This document shows, piece after piece, positions 9,001-34,882 of a stretch of DNA of 40,236 nucleotides. The notes beneath the pieces are model-generated. The model did no database searches. It was not told the DNA's origin and worked only from the letters and a program-made list of their open reading frames with translations. This stretch comes from Frankia torreyi. Lineage in GTDB: Bacteria > Actinomycetota > Actinomycetes > Frankiales > Frankiaceae. The stretch is from the NCBI RefSeq assembly GCF_000948395.1, contig NZ_JYFN01000038.1:22459-62694 (forward strand), written 5' to 3'. The translations under genes were made by a program, and so were the position numbers. Each line of letters begins with the position of its first letter. Position 1 is the first letter of the stretch.

Positions 9001-10851
9001 TCACTGCGCGGGCGGCTCGTCGGCGAGGAGGTCCTGCAGCTCGCGCAGGGCGATCGTGAGCTGCTCGGCGAAGGCGTGCAGGCCGTCGGCGACCGCGCGT
9101 GGGGTGCTCAGGTAGAGGTTGAACCGGTCCGGCAGCAGCACGTAGGCGACGCCGATGCACTGGCTGCTCGTCGAGCCGAAGCCGAAGAACTCGACGTTGA
9201 CCGACGGCGCCGAGCTGGTGCTCAGGAAGTCGTCACGCGTCTTCAACCAACCTGGGGTGTCGTAGAGCGCGATCGGCTCGCTCACCCCGAGTTCGGCGCC
9301 GCGGCGGCGGGCGATGAACTGCAGCTCCCACAGATGCTGCTCGGGCGCGCGCCCGGCCTGGCAGTCCTTCGCGCGGCGCACGTGCGCGTCGGCGGCGGCA
9401 CGGAACGCGGCCCGCTTCGCCGCCGGGTCGGCGGCCGGGTCCTGCATCGCCGCGACGAACTGATGGATCTGCGGGGTGACGACCCGCATCGCCTCGGTGC
9501 GTCCGCGCCGCCACTGCCGCGTCGCGATCGACTCGTAGGTGGCGCCCACATGCCCCTTGGCCCGGACGTGCGCGAGCTGGTAGGCGAGCTGGACGAAGGC
9601 ATCCGGCGAGGTCCGCAGCGCCTTGGCCCGGTTCTGGCCGAAGTCGTCGAAGGACAGCACGGTCGAGGCGGTCGCCGCGGCGAAGTCCGTGAACGACGCG
9701 CCGGCGTCGGCGATGTCCGCACGCAGGTCGGCGTCGAGGACGAACCCGACGGGCTCGACGGCGGGCAGGCCCTGCGGCTGGGCACCGGAGCTCGCCGAGT
9801 GCTCCTGCGGTGAGGTGGACAGCAGGTCGTCGACGAAGCTGAGGATCGTCGTGCCGTCCAGGCCGCAGTGCTCCACGTTGATGCCCGCCCGGCCGTCCGG
9901 GAACACGATCAGCGAGACGGCCTTGTCGAACCAGCGGTTGCCGGCGTCGCCGTGCAGGAGCTGGTCGCAGGCGGCGAGGTTGTCGGCCGGCGTGGCCTCC
10001 TCCAGGCAGAGGCAGAACAACGCGGTCTCGATGGTGTCAAGCGCGGCGGCGTTGGCTGGGTCGAGGGCGGACAGCCGCTCCCGGCTCTGCGCCCAGGCGG
10101 CGCGCGCCTTCGTGGTGAGCTGGCCGACCGCGGCGTCGGCCGGTACCCGCGTCGGCGCCGCCTTGAGCACGGCGGTGAGGCCCGCGGCGAGGTCGTCGAG
10201 CGTGTACGGGTGCCCGTCCGGGCCGACCACGTCGAGGCGGACGATGTTCCCCCGGTGGAGGACCACGATGTGGCGCGCGGGGGAGGGGCCGGGCCAGGCG
10301 TCGCTGTACGGGGTGCGCACGGTGTCCTGCACGGCGCCGGGGATCCGGGTGGTGGAGAACAGGTAGGTGTTCTGGGCCATCGACAGCACCTGACCGCGTT
10401 GCCGGACCGGTTCGATCCGCTCGTCGTCGAGGCGCAGCTTGTAGTCGACGGCCGCCGCGATCAGGCCCGCGGCCCGCTCGACCTGCGGCTGCTCCGCCGC
10501 GCCGGCGGCGTCGTCGTCGGTGAACAGGAAGATGTAGTTGGCGTTGAGCGCGATGCGGTCCCGCCGGCCGAGGTAACGGGAGTCCCAGAAGTCGTCCAGC
10601 CAGCTCTGCACGCCCTCGGTCGCCTCGTAGCGCTCCAGCGCGGCGTGCAGGACCGGACCGGGGCCATCGGAGCCCTGGAAGGCGGTCACGGCCGCCGCGG
10701 TCGTCGCGCGCTCGGCCGGGGTGAGCAGGGGGGCGGACCACTCGAGGAAACGCTCGCAGCTCGCCGCGAGCGTGGGCAGCGGCACCCGGGGCAGCAGGTC
10801 GTCGTAGGCGAAGGTTCCGGTGGTGCGCTGGTCGGATGGGGTCGCGTTCAT
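9001..10851 (-). CDS. Choline/carnitine O-acyltransferase family enzyme
   Basis: A 616-residue protein with the layout of carnitine/choline acyltransferases: N-terminal LPRVPLPTLAASCERFLEWSAPLL, the motif LLHGDAGNRWFDKAVSLIVF and the catalytic-His block GINVEHCGLDGTTIL, with His about residue 328. The family's C-terminal substrate region is represented by EFFGFGSTSSQCIGVAYVLL. The family moves acyl groups between CoA (or a carrier) and a hydroxyl such as that of carnitine. The enzyme is uncommon in bacteria. Downstream of a methyltransferase and an Fe/2OG oxygenase on the same strand, it may O-acylate a hydroxylated, methylated product (inference). The gene starts at ATG 10851 behind a 370-bp repeat-rich gap and ends before a convergent hairpin. 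Confidence 0.88.
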   Translation of the reverse strand: MNATPSDQRTTGTFAYDDLLPRVPLPTLAASCERFLEWSAPLLTPAERATTAAAVTAFQGSDGPGPVLHAALERYEATEGVQSWLDDFWDSRYLGRRDRIALNANYIFLFTDDDAAGAAEQPQVERAAGLIAAAVDYKLRLDDERIEPVRQRGQVLSMAQNTYLFSTTRIPGAVQDTVRTPYSDAWPGPSPARHIVVLHRGNIVRLDVVGPDGHPYTLDDLAAGLTAVLKAAPTRVPADAAVGQLTTKARAAWAQSRERLSALDPANAAALDTIETALFCLCLEEATPADNLAACDQLLHGDAGNRWFDKAVSLIVFPDGRAGINVEHCGLDGTTILSFVDDLLSTSPQEHSASSGAQPQGLPAVEPVGFVLDADLRADIADAGASFTDFAAATASTVLSFDDFGQNRAKALRTSPDAFVQLAYQLAHVRAKGHVGATYESIATRQWRRGRTEAMRVVTPQIHQFVAAMQDPAADPAAKRAAFRAAADAHVRRAKDCQAGRAPEQHLWELQFIARRRGAELGVSEPIALYDTPGWLKTRDDFLSTSSAPSVNVEFFGFGSTSSQCIGVAYVLLPDRFNLYLSTPRAVADGLHAFAEQLTIALRELQDLLADEPPAQ

Positions 10852-11224
10852 CCTGGGCCTCGGCTTGTCTCAGGGGGGCTCGGCTGGTCTCAGGGACTCG
10901 GCTGGTCGTGGCGGTGGGGCTGGCTGTGGCGGTGGGGCTGGTCGCGGCGGTGGGGCTGGTCTCGGTGTCTCGACTGGGCGCGGAGTCCCGGCCTGGTCCG
11001 AGCGCGCCGCCGGGGGCGCTGATCGGGTTGTGTCGGGTCCGGCGTCGCCGGGTCCGCCGGAGCTCGAGGGTCCCATGAGACGACCGGATCGTGCGGGTCG
11101 TCGCCACCCCTGGGTGGTACCGACTGGCTCACCACGGCGCTCGGGTCCGCCGCCACAGTCCTCGCGTCCGCCGCCACGGTTGTCAGGTCTGCCGTCACGG
11201 TTGTCAGGTTCGCCGTCACGGTTG
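10852..11224. other. Repeat-rich gap between acyltransferase and methyltransferase genes
   Basis: No gene is visible. It contains an 18-bp array (10903-10956) and a 21-bp array (11149-11232) that runs over the methyltransferase stop codon. Several frames are open because the repeats are G/C-rich and have periods divisible by 3, but their translations are low-complexity (Pro/His/Arg or Leu/Thr/Val units). Confidence 0.65.
10903..10956. repeat. 18-bp tandem repeat, three units
   Basis: Unit TGGTCGTGGCGGTGGGGC at 10903-10920, with close copies at 10921-10938 and 10939-10956. It is intergenic, upstream of the acyltransferase start. Confidence 0.9.
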
Positions 11225-11232
11225 TCAGGTTC
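11149..11232. repeat. 21-bp tandem repeat, four units overlapping the methyltransferase stop
   Basis: Units at 11149, 11170, 11191 and 11212; the last two are identical (GCCGTCACGGTTGTCAGGTTC), the first two diverged. The methyltransferase stop codon (11225-11227) falls inside the fourth unit. Confidence 0.92.
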
Positions 11233-12238
11233 GCCGCCCGGTCAGGGTGCCGGCGGGCTGCTGGCCGAAGACGGGCCGATTCGCCCCGCGGCCAGCGGCG
11301 CTGCGCGGTCTGGAGACATGCAACTGGGCGTAGAGCCAGCCCTCGGTCTCCAGCCCGCGGGGGTCCACGCCCACCGAGGCCAGCGTGTCGAGGACCTGCT
11401 CCTGCTCCTGGGCGGAGGCGAAGCGCCGCTGCGGGAACACCCCGTCGACATGGACGGTCTCGTAGCCGAGCTCGTCGAGCGTCTCGGTGAACGGCGCGAA
11501 GGGGAACATCCGCAGCACGAAGTGGGCCATCCAGGGTCGCCGGTCGCCGGCCGCGCGGGCCACCCGGGCGAGCGTCCGTTCGCTGACATAACCGATACAG
11601 CCCGTGGAGATGACGAGGTCGGCGCCGTCGAGGCGGGCGCGTTCGGCCTCGGTGGGGTCCCGCTGCTCCAGGTCGGCGCAGACGGCCTCGTCGAGGAAAC
11701 CCGCGGCCAGCGCGTAGGAGATCGCCGGCGCGGAGGTGTCCAGACCGACGAAGCGAGTCCCGCTCGGCCGGCGGTGGGCGCGGACGAGGTCGCGGTCGCG
11801 GTCCAGCAGGGCATCCCGACCCGGACTGGGCTGGCCGCCGTAACGCTCGAACAGGTCGTCCATCGTCAGGTCGCAGCGCAGCAGTGCGGCGTTGATCCCG
11901 TAGGAGCAGCCGATGTCCAGCACGGTCGGGGGGAGCCGACGCTGTGCCCGGCACTCGTCGATGAGCCGGCTGAAGAACGGCTTGGCGAGCTGGGGGATGT
12001 GGTAGCCGAGCGTCCGCAGGGTGCTGAAGTAGGCCTGCGGGTCGGGTTGCGTGTAGATGTGGTCGAGGGCGACCTTGCCGGTGTCGTCGAATTGCAGGCC
12101 GTCGTCGAACCGCAGGCCGTCGTCGAACTGGCCGGCCGGATCGGCACCGACGTCGATGGGTTGGGCGTCGACGGGATGGGCGTCGGTGGTGTTGGCGTCG
12201 GTGGGGTCGGCGTCGGTGGGGTCGGCGTCGGAATGCAC
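11225..12238 (-). CDS. Class I SAM-dependent methyltransferase with repeat-bearing N-terminus
   Basis: A 337-residue protein. The first about 55 residues are low-complexity Asp-rich repeats (DADPT-like pentads, then FDDGL/Q units). The folded part begins near VALDHIYTQPDPQAYFSTL and has the SAM-binding motif PTVLDIGCSYGINAALLRCD, an acidic position in FVGLDTSAPAI and GADLVISTGCIGYV as motif IV. GTG at 12238 follows GAGGAGGAG at good spacing. The methyl acceptor is unknown. The catalytic core probably ends near EGWLYAQLHVSRP; the last about 25 residues are poorly conserved in character and end inside a 21-bp repeat. With the oxygenase upstream and the acyltransferase downstream it probably belongs to one small-molecule pathway (inference). 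Confidence 0.8.
   Translation of the reverse strand: MHSDADPTDADPTDANTTDAHPVDAQPIDVGADPAGQFDDGLRFDDGLQFDDTGKVALDHIYTQPDPQAYFSTLRTLGYHIPQLAKPFFSRLIDECRAQRRLPPTVLDIGCSYGINAALLRCDLTMDDLFERYGGQPSPGRDALLDRDRDLVRAHRRPSGTRFVGLDTSAPAISYALAAGFLDEAVCADLEQRDPTEAERARLDGADLVISTGCIGYVSERTLARVARAAGDRRPWMAHFVLRMFPFAPFTETLDELGYETVHVDGVFPQRRFASAQEQEQVLDTLASVGVDPRGLETEGWLYAQLHVSRPRSAAGRGANRPVFGQQPAGTLTGRRT
12152..12226. repeat. 15-bp tandem repeat encoding Asp-rich pentads
   Basis: Five units from 12152 (GTCGATGGGTTGGGC) to 12226 (GTCGGTGGGGTCGGC), inside the 5' end of the methyltransferase gene. Each unit encodes a five-residue Asp-containing block on the minus strand, so unit-number changes keep the frame. 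Confidence 0.88.
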
Positions 12239-12314
12239 GCGGGACGCTCCTCCTCGAACGGCGGTGCGGCTGTCGGGACCGGCGGGGGCTCGCGGGGGCT
12301 CGACGAGGGCGGGT

Positions 12315-13184
12315 TCAGTCCAGCAGTGCGTCGACGCGCACGGCGCTCGCCTCCGCGGCCAGGTGGCCGGGCAGGACGCGACCGAAAAGCTGGCGGGTGC
12401 GGGCGACGCTGCCGACCACTCCCGGCCGCTCGGTGTACGCGAAGATCGCCGAATGTCGGGCGATTTCGCCCTGGACGGGGCTGACCCGGTGCATGGAATA
12501 ACGTCCGAGGAAGAGCTGCAGGTCGCCGGGGCGAAGGACCAGGCGCCGGACGAGGTGAGCGCCCTCGCCGGCCAGCACGGCTCGGACGGCGGGAAAGTTC
12601 TCCGCCTGCGCCGTGCGGATGTTCGGGCAGTACTCGAACTCGCCGCCGAACTCCGGCTCCTGGGTCAGCATGCTGACCGCGAACTCGTTGGTGTCGAAGT
12701 GCCAGGGGTGTTCCAGCCCCGGGGTGATCACGTTCAGGCAGAGCCCGGCCAGCGGATCGGCGAGTTCATGCACCTGCACCAGCCCGAAGCAGGCCGCGAC
12801 GAAGCGCTGGAACGGCTCGCTGCGGTAGAGCCAGTGGATGGCGAAGTCGGTGGGAATCTGGTCCCGGGCGACGAAGGCGTTACCCCGGCGCATGGCGATC
12901 CGGCCGGGGTGGTCGGCCGGCAGCGCGGAGTCGATCGCAATGTTGTAGGCGTTGACGGTCTCGATCTCGTCGTAGGCCAGCGGGGCCACGGTGGCGCATT
13001 CTCGGGCCAGGGCGGGAAACACGGTGGGATGAATGAATCCAGGTAGCACGCAACAACCGTCTGTGCGCAGATCGTGCCGCGCGCGGGAGACGGCGGTCCA
13101 CCACAGCGGGTTGGCCGGGTCGGCGAGGGGATAACTCGTCGTGTCGACCAACTCGCTGATTGATCGAGCGTCCGCCGCACTCAT
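12315..13184 (-). CDS. Fe(II)/2-oxoglutarate-dependent oxygenase, BesD/HalD-like family
   Basis: A 289-residue enzyme with the double-stranded beta-helix facial triad: His162 and Asp164 in HPWHFDTNEFAVSML and His232 in LGRYSMHRVSPV, plus Arg243 (IARHSAIF) well placed to bind 2-oxoglutarate. The sequence style around the triad resembles the BesD/HalD family of free-amino-acid halogenases and hydroxylases. Halogenases of this type replace the Asp with Gly or Ala; here Asp is kept, so hydroxylation is the expected reaction. The substrate is unknown; a free amino acid is plausible (inference). ATG at 13184 follows GAGGAG; the frame extends to 13202 but the RBS argues for 13184. It is the first gene of the trio, followed by the methyltransferase after a 76-bp gap. 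Confidence 0.8.
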   Translation of the reverse strand: MSAADARSISELVDTTSYPLADPANPLWWTAVSRARHDLRTDGCCVLPGFIHPTVFPALARECATVAPLAYDEIETVNAYNIAIDSALPADHPGRIAMRRGNAFVARDQIPTDFAIHWLYRSEPFQRFVAACFGLVQVHELADPLAGLCLNVITPGLEHPWHFDTNEFAVSMLTQEPEFGGEFEYCPNIRTAQAENFPAVRAVLAGEGAHLVRRLVLRPGDLQLFLGRYSMHRVSPVQGEIARHSAIFAYTERPGVVGSVARTRQLFGRVLPGHLAAEASAVRVDALLD

Positions 13185-13932
13185 GACACTCCTCTCCACC
13201 ACCCGTTCACGGCTGTTCCCGGCAACGTGAACCTTCCGTGACCGGAACGGGAATTACCCCATGTTGACCCGGAAGTCACGATGGTGAAGGTTAGTGTGAG
13301 ATGCGACACGATCGGTGGTTTGGCCGGCCGGAACTGTTGGCGTGTGCCGTTGTCCGGCTGCTAGGGCCAGGCTCGATCGACCGTAGCCGCCAGGACCGCA
13401 AAGGCAGGTGACCTGCACCTTTACGGTCGGCGGCGGACGGTGGGCCATACCGCGCCCGCCCGTGTGGACCGGGTTCACCTACCCGAACGTGCCACCAGGT
13501 GCGGCGGATCGCCGCGCACCCGGCCGCGCACCCGGCCGCGCGCCCGGCCGCGCGCCCGGCCGCGCGCCCGGCCGATCGCCTGGCGTTACGTCGACCTCCG
13601 GACCGACCCTGCGCCCGCGTAGCCTGCGCGAGCGCAGGAGCCGCGGGTCCGTGGGGGCGAGCGCGGGCTGACAATCCGATCCCCGGCGTTCCGCGCGGCC
13701 TGGTCCGTCGTCTCCTGGCCCGTCGTCCGGGTCACGTCCGGCCGGCCCGGCCCGCAGCGGCGCGGCTCCCCGCACGGTGCCCGGAGAGTGCCGCGGGCGG
13801 CGATCGAGATTCTCCGAACAGGCGAATCGGCGAGCGAATCTGAATACCATCTGTGCCAGCCCGATTCCGATTCCGCTTCCGGTGACGGCCGTGGGGAATC
13901 GCGGCCGGGGGAGAATCGAGAGGACGCCCGCA
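13185..13932. other. Long divergent intergenic region with a 12-bp repeat
   Basis: About 750 bp between the oxygenase and the antiporter. I find no credible gene; several open frames cross it but are Pro/Arg/Ala-rich. A less GC-rich patch near 13250-13320 is the likeliest promoter area for the oxygenase operon. A 12-bp array lies at 13513-13572, and an A-containing segment near 13800-13925 precedes the antiporter start. Confidence 0.55.
13513..13572. repeat. 12-bp tandem repeat, five units
   Basis: CGCGCACCCGGC twice (13513, 13525) followed by CGCGCGCCCGGC three times (13537, 13549, 13561). It is flanked on both sides by GATCGCC. Intergenic. Confidence 0.93.
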
Positions 13933-15288
13933 GTGGCCTCAGCCCCGCACGCGGACCATGTCGTCGCCGTTGTCTTCGCCGACGCGGCGCTCATCATCGC
14001 CCTCAGCGCGCTGTTCGCGCAGGTGGCCCGCCGATGCCGACAGCCCGTGGTGATCGGCGAGATCCTCGCGGGCCTCGCGCTCGGCCCGAGCCTGCTCGGC
14101 CTGCTGCCGGGAGATCTGCCGAGGACGCTGTTCCCCCCGGACATCCGGCCGTACCTGAACATCCTGTCCCAGCTCGGCCTGGTGCTGTTCATGTTCGTCG
14201 TCGGCTACGACCACGACCTCGGTGACGTCCGCCGTAGGGGAGGGCTGACGGCCGCCCTGACGGCCGCGTCGATCCTGGTGCCGTTCGGCAGCGGTATCGG
14301 CGCTGCCGCCATCCTGCATCCGTGGCATCGGAGCGTCGAGGGAAAGGCGGTCGGCCTCCTGCCGTTCGCGCTGTTTCTTGGCACCGCCATGTCCATCACC
14401 GCGTTGCCGGTACTCGCCCGCATTCTCACCGAGCGGCGTATGGCCGGCGACGTCGTCGGGAGAATGGCGCTGACCTGTGCGGTCATCGGGGATGCCGTCG
14501 GCTGGTGCACACTCGCGGTGGTCGTCGCCGTGGTGAATGCGAGCGGCCCGTGGGGATTCCTGCGCATGGTCGGCGAGCTCGCCGGCCTCGTCGCCGTGCT
14601 GGCGGTCGTCGTGGCGCCGCTGGCCCGGGTGCTGGCGCAGCGGGCGGCGGCGCGGGCGGATCCGCGCAGCGTCGGCCCGGCCCTGCTCACCTTCGCCGTC
14701 GTCGGCCTGCTGATCTGCTCGTGGGCGACCGCCGAGATCGGGCTGCACCCGGTGTTCGGGGCGTTCGCGTTCGGCGCCGCGCTGCCCCGGTCGAGCCTCG
14801 GCCGGCTCGCGCCGGACCTGGGTGTGAACATCGAGCGGTTCGGGGCGATCCTGCTGCCGGTCTTCTTCGTCGCAGCCGGCCTGTCGGTGGATCTCGGCGC
14901 CGTGGACGGGCGCGGCCTGCTGGAGATCCTGCTGATCGTGGCGGTGGCATTCGCGGCCAAGATCATCGGGGCGGGCGGTGCCGCCGCACTGGCCGGGCTG
15001 GGCCGCCGAGGGGCGACGACCTTCGCCGTGCTGATGAACACCCGTGGGCTCACCGAGATCGTCGTGGCTCAGATCGGCCTGGACATGGGCGTGCTCGACC
15101 GGACGACCTTCACGGCGCTGGTCGTGATGGCGCTGCTCACCACCGCGGCCACCAGCCCGCTGCTCGACCGCCTGGGCATTCCCGTGCCGCCGGTGACTCC
15201 CATCCCGGCCTCCCGGTCACCCCTCGACGCCACCGCGCCAACGCCGACCAGCGAGGCGAGCCGGCTGTCTCAGAAGCCGGCGAGGTAG
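13933..15288 (+). CDS. CPA2-type cation:proton antiporter (Na+/H+ exchanger family)
   Basis: A 451-residue polytopic membrane protein with about 12 hydrophobic segments. It starts with VVAVVFADAALIIALSALF and the typical RRCRQPVVIGEILAGLALGP. It includes the re-entrant-helix-like ALFLGTAMSITALPVLARIL and AFGAALPRSSLG, and ends in MNTRGLTEIVVAQIGLDMGV. It should exchange Na+ or K+ for protons across the cytoplasmic membrane. GTG at 13933 with GAGAGGA about nine bases upstream is preferred over the longer frame from 13777, whose extra residues look non-coding. No KTN or TrkA domain is attached. The last 19 bp overlap the 3' end of the convergent monooxygenase gene. Confidence 0.9.
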   Translation: MASAPHADHVVAVVFADAALIIALSALFAQVARRCRQPVVIGEILAGLALGPSLLGLLPGDLPRTLFPPDIRPYLNILSQLGLVLFMFVVGYDHDLGDVRRRGGLTAALTAASILVPFGSGIGAAAILHPWHRSVEGKAVGLLPFALFLGTAMSITALPVLARILTERRMAGDVVGRMALTCAVIGDAVGWCTLAVVVAVVNASGPWGFLRMVGELAGLVAVLAVVVAPLARVLAQRAAARADPRSVGPALLTFAVVGLLICSWATAEIGLHPVFGAFAFGAALPRSSLGRLAPDLGVNIERFGAILLPVFFVAAGLSVDLGAVDGRGLLEILLIVAVAFAAKIIGAGGAAALAGLGRRGATTFAVLMNTRGLTEIVVAQIGLDMGVLDRTTFTALVVMALLTTAATSPLLDRLGIPVPPVTPIPASRSPLDATAPTPTSEASRLSQKPAR

Positions 15289-16496
15289 GTGGCGGTCTTC
15301 GCCGGGTCGAGGAACCAGTGCTGGAAGTCGCTGGGATCGTCGAAGCCGTTGACGAAGCGGCGGGCGACGGCGTCGTGCGTCCCCGCCGCGCCGAGGATCT
15401 GCTGGACGTGCTCCGGCGGCGGGGCGAGCAGCGCGTTGGTCCAGGTGGTGACGTGCTGGGCGTAGTCCCAGTACCGGTCGAAGGCGCCCTGCATCCAGGC
15501 GCGGTCGAACGGCCTGTCGCCGTGGGCGAGGATGCTGTCGAGGTAGGAGGCGGCACACTTCGCGGCGTTGTTCGCGCCCTGCCCGGTGATCGGGTCGTTG
15601 GCGACGACGACGTCGGCCATCCCCAGCACCGCCCGGCCCGACGGCAGCTCGCCGACCGGCCGGCGCACAACGGGGGTGTAGCCGCCGGCGAGCGTGGCAT
15701 GGGTGTCGGTGAGCTCCACGTCGGTGCAGCGCTCGTGCTCCCACGGCACGTACGTCCGGGTCAGCTCGAGGATGCGGCGCAGGTGTTCGGCGGGCTCGGG
15801 GTGGTCGTCCCAGCAGTCCAGCGGGCCGCCGGGGATTCCCTCGAAGAACAGGATGTCGCAGTTCCCGCTGAGTGTGTACGCCGGGATGACGAACAGTTCC
15901 CCGACCCCGGGGGCGATGTTGAAGCGGACGCCGGGGGCGTCGGGGTGCTCGGGGCGCGGCGCGAGCCCGTGCACGTATGCCAGCGACAGCACCCGCTGCG
16001 GCGCGGTGTACGGCGAGCGGGCGGCGTCCCGGTCGAACAGACCGACCAGCTCGCCCTTGCCCGCCGCCACGATGACGAGGTCGTACAGCTCGGCGAGGTG
16101 GTTCAGGTCGGAGGTGGTGACCCCGGAGATGATGAGTTTGCCGCCGCGTTCCTCGAGCAGCTCCGACCAGCCGGCCATCTTCACCCGCTGGTCGATGGAC
16201 TGGGCGGGATGATCGAGCCGGCCGAACCAGTCCAGCGCCCGGGTGCCGTCCGGCGCGGCCAGCGACACGCCCAGCCCCTCGATCCCGACCGCGTCGGCCT
16301 CCCACAGGTTCAGCCCGTGGTCGCGCTCGTGCTGCAGCGCCGTGTGGAACATGGCCTGGGTGGACATCACCCGGCCGGTGCGGATCTCCTCGGGGGTGCG
16401 CGCCGACATCATCGTGACGTCGTAGTCGTGCTCCCGCAGAGTGAGGGCGAGCTGCAGGCCCGACTGGCCGGCGCCGACGATCAGGATCTTGCGCAT
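15270..16496 (-). CDS. Styrene/indole-monooxygenase-like FAD-dependent protein (StyA family)
   Basis: A 408-residue flavoprotein. Its N-terminal Rossmann motif is ILIVGAGQSGLQLALTL (residues about 4-20). Family-like blocks are RTGRVMSTQAMFHTALQHE, VIVAAGKGELVGLF and VVVANDPITGQGANNAAKCA. StyA-type enzymes epoxidise styrene or indole using FADH2 from a separate reductase (StyB); no reductase lies nearby. The gene is the last of a conservon operon, where redox enzymes are frequent companions, so it may act on a cellular signal or be an output module (inference). ATG at 16496 follows GAGGAGGAC. Its 3' end overlaps the convergent antiporter gene by 19 bp. Confidence 0.87.
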   Translation of the reverse strand: MRKILIVGAGQSGLQLALTLREHDYDVTMMSARTPEEIRTGRVMSTQAMFHTALQHERDHGLNLWEADAVGIEGLGVSLAAPDGTRALDWFGRLDHPAQSIDQRVKMAGWSELLEERGGKLIISGVTTSDLNHLAELYDLVIVAAGKGELVGLFDRDAARSPYTAPQRVLSLAYVHGLAPRPEHPDAPGVRFNIAPGVGELFVIPAYTLSGNCDILFFEGIPGGPLDCWDDHPEPAEHLRRILELTRTYVPWEHERCTDVELTDTHATLAGGYTPVVRRPVGELPSGRAVLGMADVVVANDPITGQGANNAAKCAASYLDSILAHGDRPFDRAWMQGAFDRYWDYAQHVTTWTNALLAPPPEHVQQILGAAGTHDAVARRFVNGFDDPSDFQHWFLDPAKTATYLAGF

Positions 16497-16512: not shown

Positions 16513-16566
16513 GGGTCAGGCCAGGGACGGTGGGTCAGGCCAGGGACGGTGGGTCAGGCCAGGGAC
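16513..16566. repeat. 19-bp tandem repeat covering the CvnD stop codon
   Basis: Units start at 16513, 16532 and 16551 around the core GTCAGGCCAGGGACGGTGG. The right-hand copy contains the CvnD stop (16554-16556) and last codons. The two others fill the gap between CvnD and the monooxygenase RBS, so they look like duplications of the gene's tail. Confidence 0.9.
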
Positions 16567-17093
16567 ATGGCGTAGCGGACCAGCGCCCGCAGGGCCTCGG
16601 CGGTCGACGCCGGGTCCCGCGCGTCACAGGTGATCAGCGGAATGCTCGGTCGCAACGCGAGGGCGTCCCGCACCTCGTCGAGGTCGTGCCACAGCCGGCC
16701 GTCGAACAGGTTCACCGCGACGAGGAAGGGCACCGTCGAGTCATGCTCGAAGTAGTTGACCGCGGCGAAGGACTGGTCGAGCCGGCGGGTGTCGGCGAGG
16801 ACGATCGCGCCCAGGGCGCCGCGGGACAGGTCGTCCCACAGGAACCAGAACCGCGCCTGGCCTGGCGTGCCGAACAGGTAGAGCACCAGGTCGGAGTCCA
16901 GCGAGATCCGGCCGAAGTCCATGGCGACCGTCGTGGTGGTCTTCTCGCCGTGCGGGGGCAGGTCGTCGACGCCCTCGCTGGCCTCGGTCATCCACGCCTC
17001 GGTGTTGATCGGCGGCACCTCCGACACCGAGCCGACCAGCGTCGTCTTGCCGACGCCGAACCCGCCGGCGATCACGATCTTCGCCGAGATCAT
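16554..17093 (-). CDS. cvnD: Conservon small GTPase-like protein (CvnD)
   Basis: A 179-residue P-loop protein: G1 motif GGFGVGKTTLVGS near residues 9-21, a Thr-rich switch (EKTTTTVAMDFG), G3-like LYLFGTPGQARFWF and a NLFD motif in place of NKxD. This is the pattern of CvnD proteins of actinobacterial conservons, which act with CvnA-C in a membrane-associated signalling complex compared to G-protein-coupled systems. Start ATG 17093; a TTG directly before it (17096) is also possible. It follows CvnC by 47 bp and ends within a 19-bp repeat. Confidence 0.88.
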   Translation of the reverse strand: MISAKIVIAGGFGVGKTTLVGSVSEVPPINTEAWMTEASEGVDDLPPHGEKTTTTVAMDFGRISLDSDLVLYLFGTPGQARFWFLWDDLSRGALGAIVLADTRRLDQSFAAVNYFEHDSTVPFLVAVNLFDGRLWHDLDEVRDALALRPSIPLITCDARDPASTAEALRALVRYAMSLA

Positions 17094-17140
17094 CAACTGG
17101 TCCGGGTCGGCGCCGGCGACCTGTCCCGGTGCGTGCCCGC

Positions 17141-17512
17141 TCAGACCGGCAGCTCCCGCAGCCCGCTGAGGATCCGCTCCAGCACACCGCGGTCGTGGGA
17201 GTAGGCGTGCGCCGTCGGATGGATGAACACCGCGCCCTGGGCGGCAAGATCGCTGATGAGCACGCGGACGACCCCGAGAGGGATCGACAGGATCGCCGAC
17301 AGCTCGGCGATCGACAACTGCGCGCGGGCCCGCTCGTAGAGCGCCTTCGACTCGGGCATCAGTGACTCGCTCAGTGCCGGGTCGTAGCGGGGGACCGAGA
17401 CCAGCGTCTCCACCAGCAGGTGGTGGCGGGTTCTGGTGCGTCCCCCGGTGAGGGCGTACGGGCGGATGCGCCGGCTGCGCGTCCGCGTCCGCGCCCGCGG
17501 TTCCGGCGTCAC
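17141..17512 (-). CDS. cvnC: DUF742 protein (CvnC)
   Basis: A 123-residue DUF742 protein with an Arg-rich N-terminus (RIRPYALTGGRTRTRHHLLVE with one break) and the DUF742 helix-turn-helix-like core AQLSIAELSAILSIPLGVVRVLISDL, then GAVFIHP. CvnC partners CvnA, B and D in conservons. GTG at 17512 overlaps the CvnB stop (GTGA), implying translational coupling. Confidence 0.9.
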   Translation of the reverse strand: MTPEPRARTRTRSRRIRPYALTGGRTRTRHHLLVETLVSVPRYDPALSESLMPESKALYERARAQLSIAELSAILSIPLGVVRVLISDLAAQGAVFIHPTAHAYSHDRGVLERILSGLRELPV

Positions 17513-17946
17513 AGTTGCCGGCCGGCGAGGACGCGGCGCAGGTCCGCGCGGGTCTGCGGGGTCAGCGCGTGGCCGGCGTGCAGCACGAACTGGGTCATCT
17601 CGTAGGCCACGACCTTCATGTCGCAGTCAGCGTCGGTGAGCACCGCGAGGCCCGCGCCCGCGTCGATGCCCATGAACAGCAGGTATCCCGACGACATCCG
17701 GACAATGATCTGCTCGCAGGTCCCCTTGTCGAACAGCGCGGCGCTGTTGCGGGCGAGGCTCAGCATCCCGCTGGCGATCGCGGCGAGCTGCTCACCCTCG
17801 ACGGTGCCGACCGTGTCCGAGGAGGTGAGCGACAGCCCGTCGGACGACAGGATCAGGGCGTGGGAAACCCCGTGCACTCTGGCGACGAAGTCGTTGATGA
17901 GCCAGGTGAAGTCGTCGTGTCCCTGGCGGTTGGTCGTATCCGTCAC
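17509..17946 (-). CDS. cvnB: Roadblock/LC7-domain protein (CvnB)
   Basis: A 145-residue roadblock/LC7 protein: FTWLINDFVARVHGVSHALI, SSDGLSLTSSDTV, and QLAAIASGMLSLARNSAALF followed by a later MGIDAGAGLAVLTDADCDM. In conservons this subunit is thought to regulate the CvnD GTPase. It starts with GTG at 17946, 8 bp after the CvnA stop, and shares GTGA with CvnC. Confidence 0.92.
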   Translation of the reverse strand: MTDTTNRQGHDDFTWLINDFVARVHGVSHALILSSDGLSLTSSDTVGTVEGEQLAAIASGMLSLARNSAALFDKGTCEQIIVRMSSGYLLFMGIDAGAGLAVLTDADCDMKVVAYEMTQFVLHAGHALTPQTRADLRRVLAGRQL

Positions 17947-17954
17947 GGCTTCTC

Positions 17955-19370
17955 TCAGGCCCCTCGCTGCTCGTCACGGGCGGTGCGTTCCCCCTCGGTG
18001 AACGCACCGAGGTCGGCGAGCAGCCGCTCGTGGTCCGCCACCTGGGCCGCCCCTGCCGCGGGCGGGGCCGCCGGCGGCGGGGCCGCGAGCGGGCCGGTGC
18101 CGTTCTTCAGACTGCGTGACACCCGGCGGGGCAGGCCGCTGGCAGTGGTCTCGACGGCGGCCGGGCCGGCGGCCGGGTTCGCTGGCCGGCTCGCTGGCGG
18201 GTTCGGCACGGGCCGCAGCGCCGGAGAGGCGGTCGGCCGCGCGGAGTGGGCCGCCGGCGCGGTCGGGCGCGGTCGGGCCAGGTGCGCGGACCGGCGTCCG
18301 GGCAGCCCGGCGGCCGTCGCCACGTGCGCCGCGGACCCGACGGTACGCACGGCGGAGACGGCGGGCGCGACGGTGACGGTCTGGGCGCCCGACCAGCTCG
18401 CCTCGGGCAGCTCGCAGATCAGCGCTGCGGGCAGCAGCACCGAGGCGGTCGTCCCGTGCGGGTGGCGGCGGTCGAGCCAGGTGCGCATCTCGTGCCGGGC
18501 CGCGATCCGACCGACCACGGCCAACCCCATGTGCCGCACGGCGTCGTCGTCGAGGGTCGGGCCGGCGCGCAGCCGCTCGTTGAGCCGGCGCATCCGCTCC
18601 GGGGGCAGGCCGATGCCCTCGTCCTCGACCCGTAGCAGCGCGCTGCCCTGCTCGGTCAGGTGCACGCCGACGCGCACCGGCGCGCTTGGCGGAGACGACT
18701 TGGTGGCATTGTCGAGCAGTTCTGCCAGCAGCCGGCCGACGTCCTCGGCGGCGAATCCGACCACACCGAGCGGGACGACCCGGCCGATGGCGATGCGGGA
18801 GTAGTGGTCGATGGAGGACATGGCCGCGCGGATCACGTCGACCATCGCCGCGGTGTCCGACGCCGTCTCGCTGGCGTCCCGCCCGGCGAGGATGCGTAGG
18901 TTCTCGGCGTTACGGCGCAGCCTGGCGGCGAGGTGGTCGAGCTGGTAGAGCTCGTCGAGCCGCTCGGCGTCCTCCTCACGGGCCTCCATCTCCTCGAGCT
19001 GGGAGAGCAGGGAGTCCACCAGGTTCAGGTCGCGCAGCGCGACGTCGGCGCAGATCGCCGACAGCGCCTGCGCCGCGGCCGCGGTCATGGCCGCGGCCGG
19101 GTCGCCGTCCGCAGGGAGGGCGGTTCCCGCGGGTAGGGCGGTGTTCGCGGGAAGGGCGGTGTTCGCGGGAAGGGCGGTGGCCGCCGGCTGGGCGGTGGTC
19201 GGCGCCGGCATGGCTGTGGAGCCCGGCGCGGGTCTCGTCGGCGCCGCGGCGGGCGGGACCGCCGGGCGGGAGTGCGCCCCGGGCGAAGCGAGGAGCTGCG
19301 CGGCGACCTCGCGGGAGTTTCCGAGCAGTGCGCGCGATCGTTGGAACAGTTCTCGGGCTCGTGTCGTCAT
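17955..19370 (-). CDS. cvnA: Conservon sensor histidine-kinase-like protein (CvnA)
   Basis: A 471-residue protein. An Ala/Pro-rich N-terminal region with a near-perfect six-residue repeat (TALPAN-like, about residues 65-85) is followed by the dimerisation helix LDHLAARLRRNAENLRILAG and a GHKL ATPase domain: N-box LLAELLDNATKSSPPSAPV, G1 RVEDEGIGLPPERM and a later GLAVVGRIAARHEM. A long Ala/Pro-rich C-terminal tail follows. I see no transmembrane segments, unlike the usual membrane CvnA, so this copy appears truncated or cytosolic. ATG at 19370 follows AAGGA; the frame extends to 19439. It is the first gene of the conservon operon ending in the StyA-like gene. Confidence 0.87.
   Translation of the reverse strand: MTTRARELFQRSRALLGNSREVAAQLLASPGAHSRPAVPPAAAPTRPAPGSTAMPAPTTAQPAATALPANTALPANTALPAGTALPADGDPAAAMTAAAAQALSAICADVALRDLNLVDSLLSQLEEMEAREEDAERLDELYQLDHLAARLRRNAENLRILAGRDASETASDTAAMVDVIRAAMSSIDHYSRIAIGRVVPLGVVGFAAEDVGRLLAELLDNATKSSPPSAPVRVGVHLTEQGSALLRVEDEGIGLPPERMRRLNERLRAGPTLDDDAVRHMGLAVVGRIAARHEMRTWLDRRHPHGTTASVLLPAALICELPEASWSGAQTVTVAPAVSAVRTVGSAAHVATAAGLPGRRSAHLARPRPTAPAAHSARPTASPALRPVPNPPASRPANPAAGPAAVETTASGLPRRVSRSLKNGTGPLAAPPPAAPPAAGAAQVADHERLLADLGAFTEGERTARDEQRGA
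19114..19185. repeat. 18-bp tandem repeat inside cvnA
   Basis: About four units around GGAAGGGCGGTGTTCGCG encode six-residue TALPAN-type repeats in the N-terminal linker of the sensor protein. The period keeps the frame. Confidence 0.85.
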
Positions 19371-19964
19371 CCCGTCCTTACTGCTCTCTCTCGTGCGGGT
19401 CCCTCCCGCCTCCGGCACCCCCGTCAGGCTGGTATGCAATCAGACGCCCGCCGGCCTCGTCCAACCGACTTGCCCGATCCCGGGGTGAGATGTCCCTAGT
19501 TGTTCCGATCGACGGCGGGAATGGGCGCGGCTATCTGCCGCGGTGCCGCCGGTAACACCGGATGAACGCGGTGGGCGGGCGACTGGCCTGCGGCTACGGC
19601 GGGATCCCCGGATGTGGTCGGGGTCAACCGCGCCCGGCACAACCCGTGGACAGCGCATTGCGCGGACCCGTTCCCCATGGCGGCGGCAATGCGCCCGCCG
19701 GGATGCCCGTGGGGCCCGCAATACCGCCCGGCGCATCGACGGCACGGCAGATTTCCCGTTACCCGGAGAACTATGTGGGACCAACAGGGTCGCTACGGCG
19801 TGGATCGGTGCGGGCGGGTCCGTGGTTGGTCCGACCGGCGCCGCCGGCCGCGGACTGCGCGCGAGGGCGTCGACCGCCTGCCCCCGCCGGCACGGTGCCC
19901 GCCCGCGCCGGCTAGCCTCTGCTCCTTCCACGAGCAAGGGGAGTTCCACGAGCAAGGGGAGCCG
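19371..19964. other. Divergent intergenic region
   Basis: Nearly 600 bp between cvnA (minus) and the lipoprotein gene (plus). Open frames cross it but lack coding character. It ends in an 18-bp duplication that doubles the lipoprotein RBS. Promoters for both neighbours should be here; I cannot place them. Confidence 0.5.
19926..19961 (+). repeat. 18-bp duplication carrying two RBS-like AAGGGGAG sequences
   Basis: TTCCACGAGCAAGGGGAG is perfectly repeated at 19926-19943 and 19944-19961. The second copy lies 3 bp before the lipoprotein ATG, so its purine tract is the working RBS and the first is a spare copy. Confidence 0.93.
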
Positions 19965-29793: not shown

Positions 29794-32256
29794 TCACATT
29801 TCCTTCCCGTCGGCGACCGGCGCCGGATCCTGATCGCCGGCCAGCGCCGCGACGGCGGCCTGGCCGAGCGCCAGCCCGCCGTCGCCCGCCGGTACCTCCT
29901 GATGAACGAGCACGTCGAAACCGGCGGCGGCCAGCCGCGCCCGGCAGGCCCGCAGCAGCACGACGTTGGCGAAGACCCCGCCGGTCAACCCGACCAGGCC
30001 GACGCCGTATCGCCGCCGCGCGACCTCGGCGACGCGGGCCACCGCGTCCGCGACGGCGAGGTGGAACGCGGCGGCCAGCGCGGGCACCCCCACGCCCGCC
30101 CGCAGGCCGTCGACGAGGCCCGCCAGCACCGGCGCCGGCTCCAGGACGCCGTCGGCCAGCCCGAAGGCAAGCGGCCGCCGCCCCGCGACGACCGCGATCG
30201 GCCCGGCGGCCTCGGGTCTGCTGTCACCGCCCCGCCGGCCAGCGCCGAGACCGTGGGCCGCGAGACCGTTGGCCGCGAGGGCCTCCAGCTCGACGGCGGC
30301 CTGCGCCTCATAGGTGGTCCGCTGGCGCACCCCGAGCAGCGCCGCCACCGCGTCGAACAGCCGGCCCATGCTGCTGCTGGGCGTGCAGGCCACGCCCCGG
30401 TCCAGGGCGGTGCGCACTGTGCTCAACTCCGCGGCGGAGCAGGCCCGCACCGGGGCGAGATCCGCCGACCAGGCCAGGCCCGCCGCGGCCAGGTGGGCCA
30501 GCGCCACCCGGCACGGGTTGCGCACCGCGGCGTCGCCGCCGGGCAGGCCGACCGGGCGCAGGTGGGCGATGCGCTCGGCGCGGGTGACGTCGGAGCCGAC
30601 GAGGAGCACCTCGCCGCCCCAGATCGTGCCGTCGCCGCCGTAGCCGGTGCCATCGAAGGCGACGCCGACGGTGGGCTCGCCGAGTCGGCCGTGCTCGGCG
30701 AGCAGCGCCGCCACGTGCGCGTGGTGGTGCTGCACCAGCCGCAGGGGGCGGTCGGTGCCGGCGGCTCGTTGCGCCCAGGCCCGGGTGGCGTAGCCGGGGT
30801 GGGGGTCGGCGGCGAAGGCCGCGGGTTCGACGCCGTACAGGCGTGCCATCCGCGCGCCGGACCGCTCGAACGCCGCCATGGCCGCGAGGCTGCCCAGGTC
30901 GCCGTGATGCTGGGACAGGATCGCCCGCCGCCCGGTCGTCAGGCAGAGCGTGTTCTTCAGCTCGCCGCCGGCGGCGAGCACCGGCCCGACCGGGCGGGGG
31001 AGATCCACCGGCAGCGGGACGTGGCCGCGGGCTCGGCGCAGCGGCACGACCTGCTCGGCGTCGCAGCGCAGCACCGAGTCGTCGCACGGCGCCAGGATCG
31101 GCCGGTCGTGGGTGAGGAAGGCGTCGGCGAGTCCGGCGAGGCGGGTGCGTGCCTCGCCGTCGTCGAAGCAGATCGGCTCGCCGGAGCGGTTGGCGCTGGT
31201 CATCACGAGCAGTCGCGGCGGCGGGCCGCCGCCCGGGATCGGCGCGAACAGCAGGTGGTGAACCGGCGTGTACGGCAGCATCAGCCCGATGAGCGGGCTG
31301 CCCGGTGCGACCAGGGCCGACACGGGCGCCCCCGGGGCGCGGCCGGTGAGCACGATCGGCGCGGCCGGCGCGCCCAGCAGCGCCGCCACCGTCGGCGAGA
31401 CAACCCCGACTCGGGCGGCCGTGGCCAGGTCGCGGGCCATCACCGCGAACGGCTGGTCCGGTCGGTTCTTGCGCCCGCGCAGCCGGGCCAGGGCCTCGTC
31501 GTTCTCGGCGCGGCAGGCCAGGTGGTAGCCGCCGACACCCTTGACCGCCACGACCGCGCCGGCCGCCAGCGCCCGCTGGGCGGCCGCGAGCGCCGCGTCG
31601 GTGCCGGTCACCGCCGGCCCGTCCGCCGGGCTGAACCACAGCCGCGGCCCGCAGTCCGGGCAGGCGATGGGCTCGGCGTGGAAGCGGCGGTCGGCGGGGT
31701 CGGCGTACTCGGCCGCGCACCGCGGGCACATCGGGAAGCGGGCCATCGTCGTCGCCGCCCGGTCGTACGGCAGCGCCTCGATGATCGTGAACCTGGGGCC
31801 GCAGTTCGTGCACGTGATGAACGGGTGGCGGTGACGCCGGTCCGCCGGGTCGAACAGCTCGCGCAGGCAGTCCGCGCACACCGCGGCATCCGGCGGCACC
31901 AGGGTCCGCGCGCCGGCCGCGGCCGTGCTGGCCACGATCCGGAACGCGCCCCCGCCCGGATGGAGGGGATGGGGAACGGTGGTGACCGTGATGCGGTCGA
32001 CGCGGGCGAGGGGCGGCGCGGCCGGGGCCAACCGGCGAAGGAACTCGGCGACGTGGGCGGCGTCGCCGTCGACCTCCGCGAAGACCGAGGCCGAGTCGTT
32101 GCCGACGAAGCCGGTGAGCCCAAGGCTGCTGGCCAACCGGTGGACGTGGGGCCGGAACCCGACGCCCTGCACGATGCCCTCGACCACGACCCGTCGGCGC
32201 ACCCGCCCGTCCGGCGGGTGCGGCGCGGACCTCTCGCCGGCGCGCGGCGCGATCAT
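29794..32256 (-). CDS. hypF: Carbamoyltransferase HypF
   Basis: 820 residues, supplying carbamoyl-AMP-derived carbamoyl groups to HypE. Domain order: acylphosphatase-like ([20 protein letters not shown], with the conserved Arg), two zinc fingers (CADCLRELF...CTNCGPRF and MCPRCAAEY...CPDCGPRLW), a YrdC-like domain ([20 protein letters not shown]) and a Kae1-like C-terminal domain ([34 protein letters not shown]). All domains are intact. ATG at 32256 overlaps the stop of the NHL gene (ATGA). Confidence 0.96.
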
Positions 32257-33554
32257 GGCCGCCGTTCCCAGATGACGACCCGGTTGTTGCCGGAGTCCGC
32301 GACGGCGAGCCGGCCGTCGGACAGGGACAGGCCGTACGGCCAGCAGAACGTGTCGGCGGTGACGCCCGACCAGCGGTTCTCGCCCGTGTCGGCGAACGTC
32401 GGTTGGCCGAGTACGGCGGTGGCCGCCGCGCCGGTGACCTGTGGCAGGCCGTCCCAGAGCAGGATCCGGTTGTTGGCGGTGTCCGCGACGGCCAGCAGAT
32501 CGCCGTCGCAGTCGGCCGCGTAGGGGAAGCGCAGCGTGTCGGCCCGGCCGGGGGCGTAGGGGGATTCACCGCAGCCGGTCAGGTCGGCCTGGCCGAGGGC
32601 CAGGCCGGCGGCGGTGTCGGCGTCGGGATGGGGCGTCCAGCCGAGCAGCCGGTGGTTGCCGGCGTCGGCGACGAGCAGCCGCCCGGCGTTCCCGGCGACG
32701 TCATGCGGCCACCGGAAGGTGGCGGGCCCGGCCGGGCCCCCGCGGTTGTCCTCCCGGCTGGTCGGATCGGGCTGGCCCAGGATCAGGTCGGGGGCCTGAT
32801 CGGGGGAGGCTGGCAGGCCGCCCCACCAGCCCAGCACCCGCCGGTTGCCGGTGTCGGCGACGTAGAAGCGCCCGCCGATCACGGCCACGCCGAACGGCCA
32901 GTAGAAGGTGGTCGGTCCGCACGGCCCGCCCCGGTTCTCCCGCACGCTCGCCGCATCCGGTTGACCGAGGACCAGGTCGGGAGGGGTGTCGGTGGCCGTC
33001 GGGACCGTGTTCCAGACGAGGATCCGGTGGTGCCAGGCGTCGGCGACGACGAGCCGGCCGTCGGTGACGACGATCCCGGTCGGCAGGTGCATCCCCCGTT
33101 CGGGCCCGCGTCCGCCGGCCGCCGGGCCCTCGCTGCTCGCGTCGGCCTGGCCGAGCACGACGTCGGCGGGGGCACCGTCGCGGGCCGGGCGACCGTGCCA
33201 GATCAGCACCCGGTGGTTGCCCGAGTCGGCCACCACGAGCAGGTCGTCGCCGAGCCACACCCCGCGCGGCGCGTACAGCCAGGACGGCGACGGCCGCGCC
33301 GCGGGCAGCGCCAGCCCTCCCGGCGCCGGCGCGCCGAGCCACACCCTCGGTTCCCACCCCGTCGCGCCGCCGGCCGTCGCGCCGCCGGCCGTCGCGGCGT
33401 CGCCCGCAGCCGTTTCGCCGGCCGTCGCGATCTGTGGTGCCGTGCCGTCGTCCACCGCGTCCCGCGTCGGCGCACCCCCCGGCTCCGTGCCGTTCGCGGC
33501 GGCGGTACCCGTCCCGGTGCCGGGGACGGTGGCCGTCGACCGGGGGGACCTCAT
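32253..33554 (-). CDS. NHL-repeat beta-propeller protein in the hydrogenase operon
   Basis: 433 residues. After a low-complexity Thr/Ala/Gly N-terminus (about 65 residues, no signal peptide) there are six propeller-type repeats. Each has a VADxGNxRVLxW-like strand pair and a VLGQxDxxS spacer, for example [15 protein letters not shown] and [18 protein letters not shown] propellers usually bind proteins or ligands. It lies between the TPR gene and hypF with start/stop overlaps on both sides (ATGA each). I infer a hydrogenase-specific assembly or interaction role; no enzymatic residues are visible. Confidence 0.88.
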
Positions 33555-34882
33555 GCAGGTCCGGGCGCGCCGCGTCGGCGGGCGATCTCGTCGAGCACGC
33601 CGCGTACCGTCAGCGCCGCGTCGTCCGCCCCGGACTCCTCGAAGATCGTCCGTGCCTCGTGCAACACCGCAGTCGCCTGGTCGTAGGCGCCGAGATGGGC
33701 CAGTGCGTTGCCCTGGTTGGCCAGCGCGCGGGCGTGGCCGAGCGGATCGGTGTCCCGGTCGCGGGCGACGATGACCTGCTGGTAGCGGGCCGCCGCCTCG
33801 ATCAGGTTGTCCTTCTGATGCGCCGACGGCGCGTAGACCAGGGCGTTGGCCAGGTTGAGCTGGGTGCTGGCCCACTGCTCGGGGTGGGTCTCGGGGGTGT
33901 ACACGGCGAGCGCCGTGCGCAGGCCCTGGATCGCGACGCCGATCCGCAACTGGTCGGAGGCCTGGCTCATCGGCATCGCCAGGTAGGCGGTGGCCAGGTT
34001 GACCTGCACCGCGGCGAACAGCTCCGGGGCGCTGTCCACGCTGATGAGCCGGAGCGCGGCCAGGTAGTGCTCCACGGCGGTGCGCAGGGCCGCCGCATCG
34101 TCGCGGGCCCGCTCCTGGTGGGCCGCGCCGAGGGCCAGGCGCAGCTCGGCACGGGCGATCACGAGCTCGGTGGCGTCGAGGGCGGCGAGCGCCGCGGTCA
34201 GGTCGGCGAGGACGTCGTCCGTCGGCCCCTCGACGCTGCGGCGCAGGTCCGCCGCGGTGGACAACAGCTGCGCGGCGAGGCCCGGGGACGCCTCCCACGC
34301 CGCGGCGACGGCCCGGCCCAGCGCCCCCGCCGCCTCGCCGGTCCGCCCGGCGGCCATGGCGTGGGCGGCGTGCGCCGAGTGCACCAGCGCCGCGATCTCG
34401 CCGGTCTCCCCGGCCAACGGCGGGGGCTCGGCCAGATCGCCGAGGGCGAAGCGGACCACGTCGACGAGGATCCCGAGCTCGGCGCCGAGGGCCTGGCGAA
34501 GCCGCGCCGGGTCCTCCACCGGGGGACCTCCCGGGCGCAGGACGAACCGGTTGTACCGGTCGATCGGGTCGTCGCCGTCGAGCTGGGCGGCGGCGCCGAC
34601 GATGTCCCCGCGGTAGGCCAGCTCCAGCGCGAGCAGGCGCGCCGGCCAGGTGTCCGGGTGGCGCCCGGCGGCGAGCGTGCGGCGCAGCTCGGCCGTGTCG
34701 TCGCCGCCCGGCACCAGCAGGAAGCCGGCGGGCAGCGGGAACACCCCGACCGGCTGCGGCCGGGCACAGCACGCGGCGGTGTCGGTCACAGCGGCATCGG
34801 TCACAGCGGCATCGGTCACGGCGGCATCGGTCACGGCGCTGTCGGTCACAGCAGTGTCGGTCGCGGTGTCGCGGTCAGTCAT
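33551..34882 (-). CDS. TPR-like protein in the hydrogenase operon
   Basis: 443 residues. The first about 30 are a pentad repeat (AVTDA/AVTDS). The rest is alpha-helical, and the C-terminal half has TPR-type helices: QVNLATAYLAMPM, TQLNLANALVYAPSAHQ, ALANQGNALAHLGAYDQA. A CxC-like CC pair follows the repeat (TAACCARP). Probably a protein-interaction scaffold. Start ATG 34882 lies inside the end of hupD (8-bp overlap) and its stop overlaps the NHL start, so it is translationally coupled within the hup operon. The exact role is unknown. Confidence 0.85.
   Translation of the reverse strand: MTDRDTATDTAVTDSAVTDAAVTDAAVTDAAVTDTAACCARPQPVGVFPLPAGFLLVPGGDDTAELRRTLAAGRHPDTWPARLLALELAYRGDIVGAAAQLDGDDPIDRYNRFVLRPGGPPVEDPARLRQALGAELGILVDVVRFALGDLAEPPPLAGETGEIAALVHSAHAAHAMAAGRTGEAAGALGRAVAAAWEASPGLAAQLLSTAADLRRSVEGPTDDVLADLTAALAALDATELVIARAELRLALGAAHQERARDDAAALRTAVEHYLAALRLISVDSAPELFAAVQVNLATAYLAMPMSQASDQLRIGVAIQGLRTALAVYTPETHPEQWASTQLNLANALVYAPSAHQKDNLIEAAARYQQVIVARDRDTDPLGHARALANQGNALAHLGAYDQATAVLHEARTIFEESGADDAALTVRGVLDEIARRRGAPGPA
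34785..34874. repeat. 15-bp tandem repeat, about six units, encoding AVTDA pentads
   Basis: Unit GTCACAGCGGCATCG from 34785 onward with small changes (cagcgg/cggcgg, catcg/tgtcg). It encodes the N-terminal repeat of the TPR protein. Period 15 keeps the frame. Confidence 0.92.

Follow-up and report, generated by a model that had tools for sequence, protein, structure and literature searches.

The enzymes of family PF00755 are the textbook acyl shuttles of eukaryotes. In the radical halogenases BesD, HalA, HalB and HalD, Gly (or Ala) replaces the iron-binding carboxylate, and the Gly allows chloride to bind. The carboxylate of carnitine is bound by Tyr431, Thr444 and Arg497 in human carnitine acetyltransferase (PMC11820905), and carnitine biosynthesis has been described as not observed among prokaryotes (PMC8085414). 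Here we discuss a bacterial locus where relatives of these two enzyme families occur together. The window, i.e., the whole stretch of DNA that was analysed, comprises 40,236 nucleotides from Frankia torreyi (assembly GCF_000948395.1, contig NZ_JYFN01000038.1, positions 22,459 to 62,694). It carries three co-directional genes that, in the direction of transcription, encode an oxygenase (OX), a methyltransferase (MT) and an acyltransferase homologue (CAT). The comparative data establish OX-MT-CAT as a real genetic unit. We propose, with about an even chance of being right, that it is a stand-alone putative biosynthetic operon whose product would be a carnitine-like small molecule, O-acylated and probably N-methylated.

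OX, MT and CAT as a genetic unit

The OX protein was scanned against 84,980 GTDB species genomes, which gave 465 stretches with relatives. The locus counts given here refer to the best 80, on which the proteins of the window were placed by tblastn. In 76 of these 80 OX, MT and CAT follow one another in the same order and on the same strand, and the MT of the window is homologous to the MT of all 76 cassettes. Three loci have OX and CAT without an intact MT, and the remaining one (L086) ends at a contig edge just past OX. MT and CAT are joined in one stop-free frame in five loci (L028, L030, L034, L035 and L036). The cassette is present in Frankia, Protofrankia, Actinomadura, Saccharopolyspora, Amycolatopsis, Actinokineospora, Gandjariella, Streptomyces, Actinoplanes and Micromonospora; in a sample of the phylum, it was also detected in two genomes of another family (G104 and G289). 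Among 58 relatives, the three genes are jointly present in 30 and jointly absent from the rest, the exception being one marginal MT hit of ~30 residues. These 30 genomes are not independent events, since all belong to the window's own family. The protein distance matrices correlate for each pair of OX, MT and CAT (r 0.83-0.86, 70 loci). Chance adjacency of the three genes is ruled out by the 76 of 80 loci together with the co-presence.

The distribution of CAT points in the same direction. PF00755 and a HalD-family oxygenase occur together in 29 of the 31 PF00755-bearing genomes among 297 genomes of the class, and the two genomes that lack the oxygenase belong to one genus and have a canonical Arg-type CAT. 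Hence, within these 297 genomes PF00755 in Actinomycetes occurs almost solely in the cassette. An earlier sequence-only reading of the locus had described three co-directional genes of these families, expected them to co-occur and noted that carnitine acyltransferase homologues are rare in bacteria. The open reading frames were confirmed, the family assignments agree with Pfam for OX and CAT and with the fold for MT, and the three families are found together in the same 30 of 58 relatives. The rarity holds within the phylum, where PF00755 was detected in 5 of 396 genomes (one of them a fragment only), and none of 14 control genomes has it.

No flanking family recurs beside the cassette across genera, save one loosely placed family, and that the cassette stands alone is well supported. 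A plasmid or phage origin was also considered and ruled out, as CAT has no match in 72,556 plasmid or 50,697 phage records. One contig binned as Candidatus Melainabacteria (L066) carries a typical actinobacterial cassette with 60-67% identity; this is probably a binning error, and otherwise a transfer.

The unit as first described was a strict three-gene cassette, which is too narrow: OX and CAT occur without an intact MT in at least five genomes. CAT directly follows OX in L049 and L094, a decayed MT remnant lies between them in L048, and two further genomes (G629 and G658) have OX and CAT with no MT in between. A search of the genome that harbors L049 revealed no MT, the L094 genome has only a diverged MT elsewhere, and the L048 genome has MT and CAT paired a second time, on a different contig. 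These observations suggest that OX-CAT is the core pair and that MT is dispensable in some lineages. If OX-CAT is the core, the simplest reading is that CAT acylates the product of OX.

At the locus itself, a terminator-like site was looked for in both gaps between the three genes and none was found. Tandem repeats lengthen the N-terminus of MT and the MT-CAT gap in the window; elsewhere this gap is mostly ~-7 to 150 bases, or it is absent where MT and CAT form one open frame. An Rfam scan of the window gave no match to an RNA element, and NCBIfam has no model for OX, MT or CAT.

The predicted enzymes and their substrates

OX matches PF23169 (HalD) in Pfam with 45.8 bits (E 6.2e-12, cut-off 26). 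This is its only Pfam match, and the TauD family (PF02668), to which enzymes of the gamma-butyrobetaine dioxygenase type belong, was not detected. In structure searches (Foldseek, VIA-align) with the AlphaFold model (predicted local distance difference test, pLDDT, 90.6), HalB, HalD, BesD, HalA and a lysine hydroxylase homologue rank first, with VIA Z scores of 20-21 for the HalD/BesD family vs ~17 for the first fold outside it. Across 93 sequences, there is no variation in the iron ligands (H168, D170 and H238), in the 2-oxoglutarate-binding R249 or in H165. The metal site reads H168-F-D170 (HxD) and not the HxG of the halogenases. Because this His-X-Asp site is intact, OX should hydroxylate rather than halogenate, in keeping with the hydroxylation role that it had been given from the sequence. 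A halogenase identity was considered for OX and is ruled out by the HxD motif, as D170 is invariant in the 93 sequences. Genes for HalB-like halogenases with HxG are present in other Frankia genomes [L161 (G005), L162 (G008) and L163 (G004)]. In L161 and L162, the halogenase gene overlaps a gene for a haem-oxygenase-like protein (PF14518/TENA, tested for L161), an arrangement reminiscent of BesD/BesC.

The substrate pocket of OX was compared with HalD-family proteins L161, L162 and L164, two of the three from other Frankia genomes, using hhalign and MAFFT alignments and the contacts described for BesD. In BesD, E123 and D143 form salt bridges with the lysine amines and W241 is a third carboxylate contact (PMC13244439). 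The carboxylate-binding His of BesD aligns with the invariant H165 of OX (hhalign and MAFFT) and its carboxylate-binding Arg falls on R106, which is likewise invariant (MAFFT); W241 could not be aligned. At the positions of the amine-binding E123 and D143, OX has L151 and T171, and neither of these varies within the cassette family. As the amine-binding acids of the lysine halogenases are missing, lysine or ornithine is an unlikely substrate for OX. This comparison is suggestive of a pocket that could accept a neutral or quaternary-ammonium substrate.

MT shows a weak match to Methyltransf_23 in Pfam (21.5 bits, below the cut-off), and a search of the PDB with its sequence gave no match up to E=1. 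Its structural model has pLDDT >90 across most of residues 70-310 and matches class I methyltransferase folds at Z 12-14. D108, G110, S112, Y113, G114 and N116 are invariant and are part of the S-adenosylmethionine (SAM) motif D108-x-G-C-S-Y-G-x-N. Residues 1 to ~45 form a repeat-rich, low-confidence N-terminal extension that is mostly absent from homologues of other genera. By its modeled fold, MT can be assigned with confidence as a class I SAM-dependent methyltransferase. The structural neighbors are generic class I enzymes, among which N-, O-, C- and S-methyltransferases differ by only 1-2 Z, and they are too generic for a function or a methylated atom to be assigned from structure. MT probably methylates nitrogen, as expected for the partner of a carnitine-type acyltransferase and in line with the genes that adjoin its diverged homologues (see below).

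CAT matches PF00755 over its full length (model positions 1-572, 534 bits, E 4.5e-160). Using phmmer, it aligns with human carnitine acetyltransferase (1nm8) at E 9.9e-65 and with choline acetyltransferase at E ~6e-55, and its closest relatives are carnitine acetyltransferase, CPT2 and carnitine octanoyltransferase (COT). The catalytic His328 and D332 (HxxxDG context) are invariant in a 34-sequence alignment and in all correctly read cassette sequences; Y439, T452 and the STS motif at 544-546 are kept and likewise do not vary within the cassette family. Human Tyr431 and Thr444 correspond to Y439 and T452, whereas Arg497 corresponds to Q505, so the Tyr/Thr/Arg set of the carnitine acyltransferases is incomplete. 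All cassette CATs that are correctly read have Gln505, also those from the loci without MT. The non-cassette CATs L197 and L198 of the same class read DRHL and retain the canonical Arg. These two proteins (in G193 and G648) are the sole non-cassette PF00755 proteins among the 297 Actinomycetes genomes and, judged from their residues, could be true carnitine acyltransferases.

Phe545, the human residue near the quaternary amine, is F558 in CAT, Val548 is T561 and Met543 is F556. CAT retains the catalytic His, the Phe that touches the quaternary amine and two of the three residues that contact the carboxylate, and its acceptor thus appears carnitine-like in outline. It is probably not carnitine itself, because Arg is replaced by Gln, invariantly so in the cassette, and Val by Thr. 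Met543 of the human enzyme bounds the acyl pocket and limits acyl length. Since this Met is Phe556 in CAT, the acyl group is probably short, acetyl or similar.

A proposed pathway and its alternatives

In the proposed pathway, the substrate would be a small carboxylic acid, either an amino acid or the betaine derived from it, and OX would hydroxylate one of its unactivated carbons. MT would methylate the same compound, most likely on nitrogen, and CAT would transfer an acyl group that is short, such as acetyl, from coenzyme A (CoA) onto the hydroxyl made by OX, giving a carnitine-like ester. The likely sequence OX, MT, CAT matches both the order of the genes and the fusion of MT with CAT. Methylation might also precede hydroxylation, as in eukaryotic carnitine synthesis, which would suit the OX pocket equally. 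In lineages that lack MT, methylation might be supplied elsewhere or skipped. The general scheme of hydroxylation, methylation and acylation, put forward in the sequence-only reading, stands; the lysine and ornithine substrates and the carnitine identity that it implied are not supported, given Leu151 and Thr171 at the amine-binding positions of OX and Gln in place of the carnitine-carboxylate Arg in all cassette CATs. More broadly, and somewhat short of an even chance, the cassette might define a widespread class of actinobacterial metabolites in which a hydroxylated and N-methylated amino acid carries a short O-acyl chain, which would be a bacterial analogue of carnitine made by a self-contained operon.

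The surroundings of more distant relatives bear on this proposal. Diverged OX homologues that occur without MT and CAT share 33-49% identity with OX and lack His165, which is common to the cassette OX and the halogenases. In Caballeronia and Pseudomonas, such a homologue adjoins a DddP-like M24 protein, and the Caballeronia locus also encodes an OpuAC/ProX-type betaine-binding protein; an M24 protein is likewise present in an actinobacterial genome (G123). With a cut-off of 600 bits for DddP, the DddP-like proteins reach 330-347 and are relatives of DddP, not DddP, and the G123 protein is shown only to belong to M24. In Rhodobacteraceae, diverged OX homologues adjoin MttB, aminotransferase and transporter genes, and in G317 and G140, they adjoin genes resembling 3-hydroxyisobutyrate dehydrogenase. 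Four small actinobacterial genomes (L142-L145) have a HalD-family oxygenase gene directly beside that for the formaldehyde-activating enzyme Fae, which suggests Fe/2OG-dependent N-demethylation that feeds a formaldehyde handler. In Mesorhizobium, diverged MT homologues have sarcosine oxidase and purU as neighbors; in Rhizobium, the neighbors are purU and an ATP-grasp L-amino-acid ligase. Together, these neighborhoods point to onium and N-methyl amino-acid metabolism; they support the betaine idea and keep an N-demethylase alive as a rival.

In that rival, OX would remove N-methyl groups oxidatively or be catabolic in some other way, and the cassette would serve to trim or remodel a methylated onium compound rather than to build one. 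The pairing with Fae, which handles formaldehyde, in four actinobacterial genomes and the presence of the DddP-like M24 enzyme, MttB and transporters beside other diverged homologues speak for it. We nevertheless regard it as unlikely: the homologues concerned are only 33-49% identical and are without His165, no conserved gene beside the cassette encodes a transporter, Fae or a catabolic enzyme, and a methyltransferase together with an acyl-CoA-dependent enzyme points to synthesis. Quite unlikely, in our view, is a prokaryotic route to carnitine or acetylcarnitine, where MT trimethylates gamma-aminobutyrate or its 3-hydroxy form, OX, as the analogue of gamma-butyrobetaine dioxygenase, introduces the 3-hydroxyl and CAT yields O-acylcarnitine. 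The closeness of CAT to carnitine acetyltransferase, CPT2 and COT, with His328, Tyr439 and Thr452 kept, and the diverged OX homologues near genes for betaine uptake and quaternary amines fit this route. Gln505 in all cassette CATs does not, as non-cassette bacterial CATs keep the Arg; moreover, OX matches the HalD and not the TauD family, and carnitine biosynthesis is, according to the paper cited above, unobserved in prokaryotes.

The same residues bear on two further alternatives. A pathway that starts by hydroxylating free lysine, ornithine or a closely related compound and goes on to methylation and acylation, as the locus was first read, would agree with the fold of OX, which is that of the lysine/ornithine halogenases and the lysine hydroxylase, and with the alignment of the carboxylate-binding Arg and His of BesD to R106 and H165. 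It is, however, distinctly improbable given that E123 and D143 align with the invariant L151 and T171. A choline-like alcohol ester would require an acceptor without a carboxylate, as in choline acetyltransferase, which has Asn at the position of the carnitine Arg. CAT likewise is without this Arg and is similar to choline acetyltransferase, as given above, yet Tyr439 and Thr452 follow the carnitine enzymes, and R106 and H165 suggest that OX requires a carboxylate on its substrate, making such a product very improbable.

Some of the data weigh against the proposed O-acylated, carnitine-like product, or at least against parts of it. MT is missing from several OX-CAT loci, and methylation may be non-essential for the CAT substrate. 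The OX pocket alignment is at only ~15% identity and was made with stand-ins from Frankia and Streptomyces, not with BesD itself. Gln505 could, from its chemistry, still form a hydrogen bond to a carboxylate, which makes carnitine improbable rather than impossible as an acceptor. Finally, the diverged homologues (33-49% identity) may do other chemistry, e.g., N-demethylation.

Neighboring genes and relation to known systems

The coordinates of the features are collected in Table 1. Just upstream of a CPA2 antiporter gene, the window encodes a styrene-monooxygenase-like FAD protein (StyA 237 bits, cut-off 550; Smoa_sbd 151 bits), whose position next to the cassette is kept in several Frankia species and not beyond Frankia. 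A bigger cluster including this flavoenzyme, the antiporter and DUF2461 was considered and rejected, since the adjacency is conserved within Frankia only. Farther away are a conservon-like row, comprising a sensor-kinase-like ATPase protein, Roadblock/LC7, DUF742 and a small nucleotide-binding protein, and genes for [NiFe] hydrogenase.

Table 1. Positions of the cassette and other features; entries starting with L refer to other loci, all others to the window
Feature	Location	Strand	Assignment	Remark
OX	12315-13202	minus	Fe(II)/2-oxoglutarate oxygenase, HalD/BesD fold	GTG start 13202, alternative ATG 13184
MT	11225-12238	minus	class I SAM-dependent methyltransferase, by fold	
CAT	9001-10851	minus	carnitine/choline acyltransferase homologue, PF00755	
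OX-MT intergenic gap	12239-12314	minus		76 bases, from open reading frame coordinates
MT-CAT intergenic region	10852-11224	minus		373 bases, with tandem repeats
Tandem repeats	10855-10983, 11144-11242, 12083-12231			
FAD protein	15270-16496	minus	styrene-monooxygenase-like	
Conservon-like row	16554-19439	minus		
Hydrogenase genes	29794-38169	minus	[NiFe] hydrogenase small and large subunits, HypF	
HalD-family oxygenase/M24 pairing	L098:8907-10130, L099:7946-9193, L141:8294-9493			Caballeronia, Pseudomonas, an actinobacterium; DddP-like in L098, L099

No description of the triad or of bacterial carnitine acyltransferases was found in the open-access literature, most subscription journals being outside the scope of the search. 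As far as could be checked, the parts belong to known families, and the combination, its spread and the altered acceptor site of CAT are undescribed. A bacterial branch of PF00755 is thus locked into one unit across many actinobacterial genera, with its acceptor site altered. If the proposed metabolite class exists, it would account for these bacteria having a carnitine-acyltransferase homologue at all, it would mean that carnitine-like chemistry was assembled from unrelated oxygenase and methyltransferase families, and it would be a new class that is present in plant symbionts (Frankia) and in the drug-producing Streptomyces, Saccharopolyspora, Amycolatopsis and Micromonospora. What bacterial carnitine acyltransferases acylate would then become directly testable with three purified proteins, and OX offers a clean hydroxylase branch for comparison with the BesD halogenases.

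Compared with known systems, OX shares its fold (Z ~21) and the HxWHx metal-binding segment with BesD, HalA, HalB, HalD and the lysine-hydroxylase homologue (PF23169), but it has Asp170 for Gly, is without the amine-binding acids and is 14-20% identical. The beta-ethynylserine (bes) cluster, which contains BesD, is similar in that a BesD-fold enzyme maybe acts on a free small acid, with no non-ribosomal peptide synthetase or polyketide synthase involved; the cassette differs by having neither a halogenase nor a BesC-like partner, and the partner enzymes are wholly different. Eukaryotic carnitine biosynthesis (trimethyllysine and gamma-butyrobetaine dioxygenases, with carnitine acyltransferase) likewise combines a methylated amine, Fe/2OG hydroxylation and O-acylation from acyl-CoA. 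In the cassette, however, the oxygenase belongs to a different family, there is no linked aldolase or dehydrogenase step and carnitine is seemingly not the acceptor. CAT resembles the PF00755 enzymes carnitine O-acetyltransferase, CPT2, carnitine octanoyltransferase and choline acetyltransferase in its full-length homology, the catalytic His with DG after it, the STS motif, the carboxylate-binding Tyr and Thr and the Phe near the quaternary amine. It differs from them in having Gln505 for Arg, Thr561 for Val and Phe556 for the acyl-limiting Met, and in being bacterial and tied to an oxygenase-methyltransferase unit.

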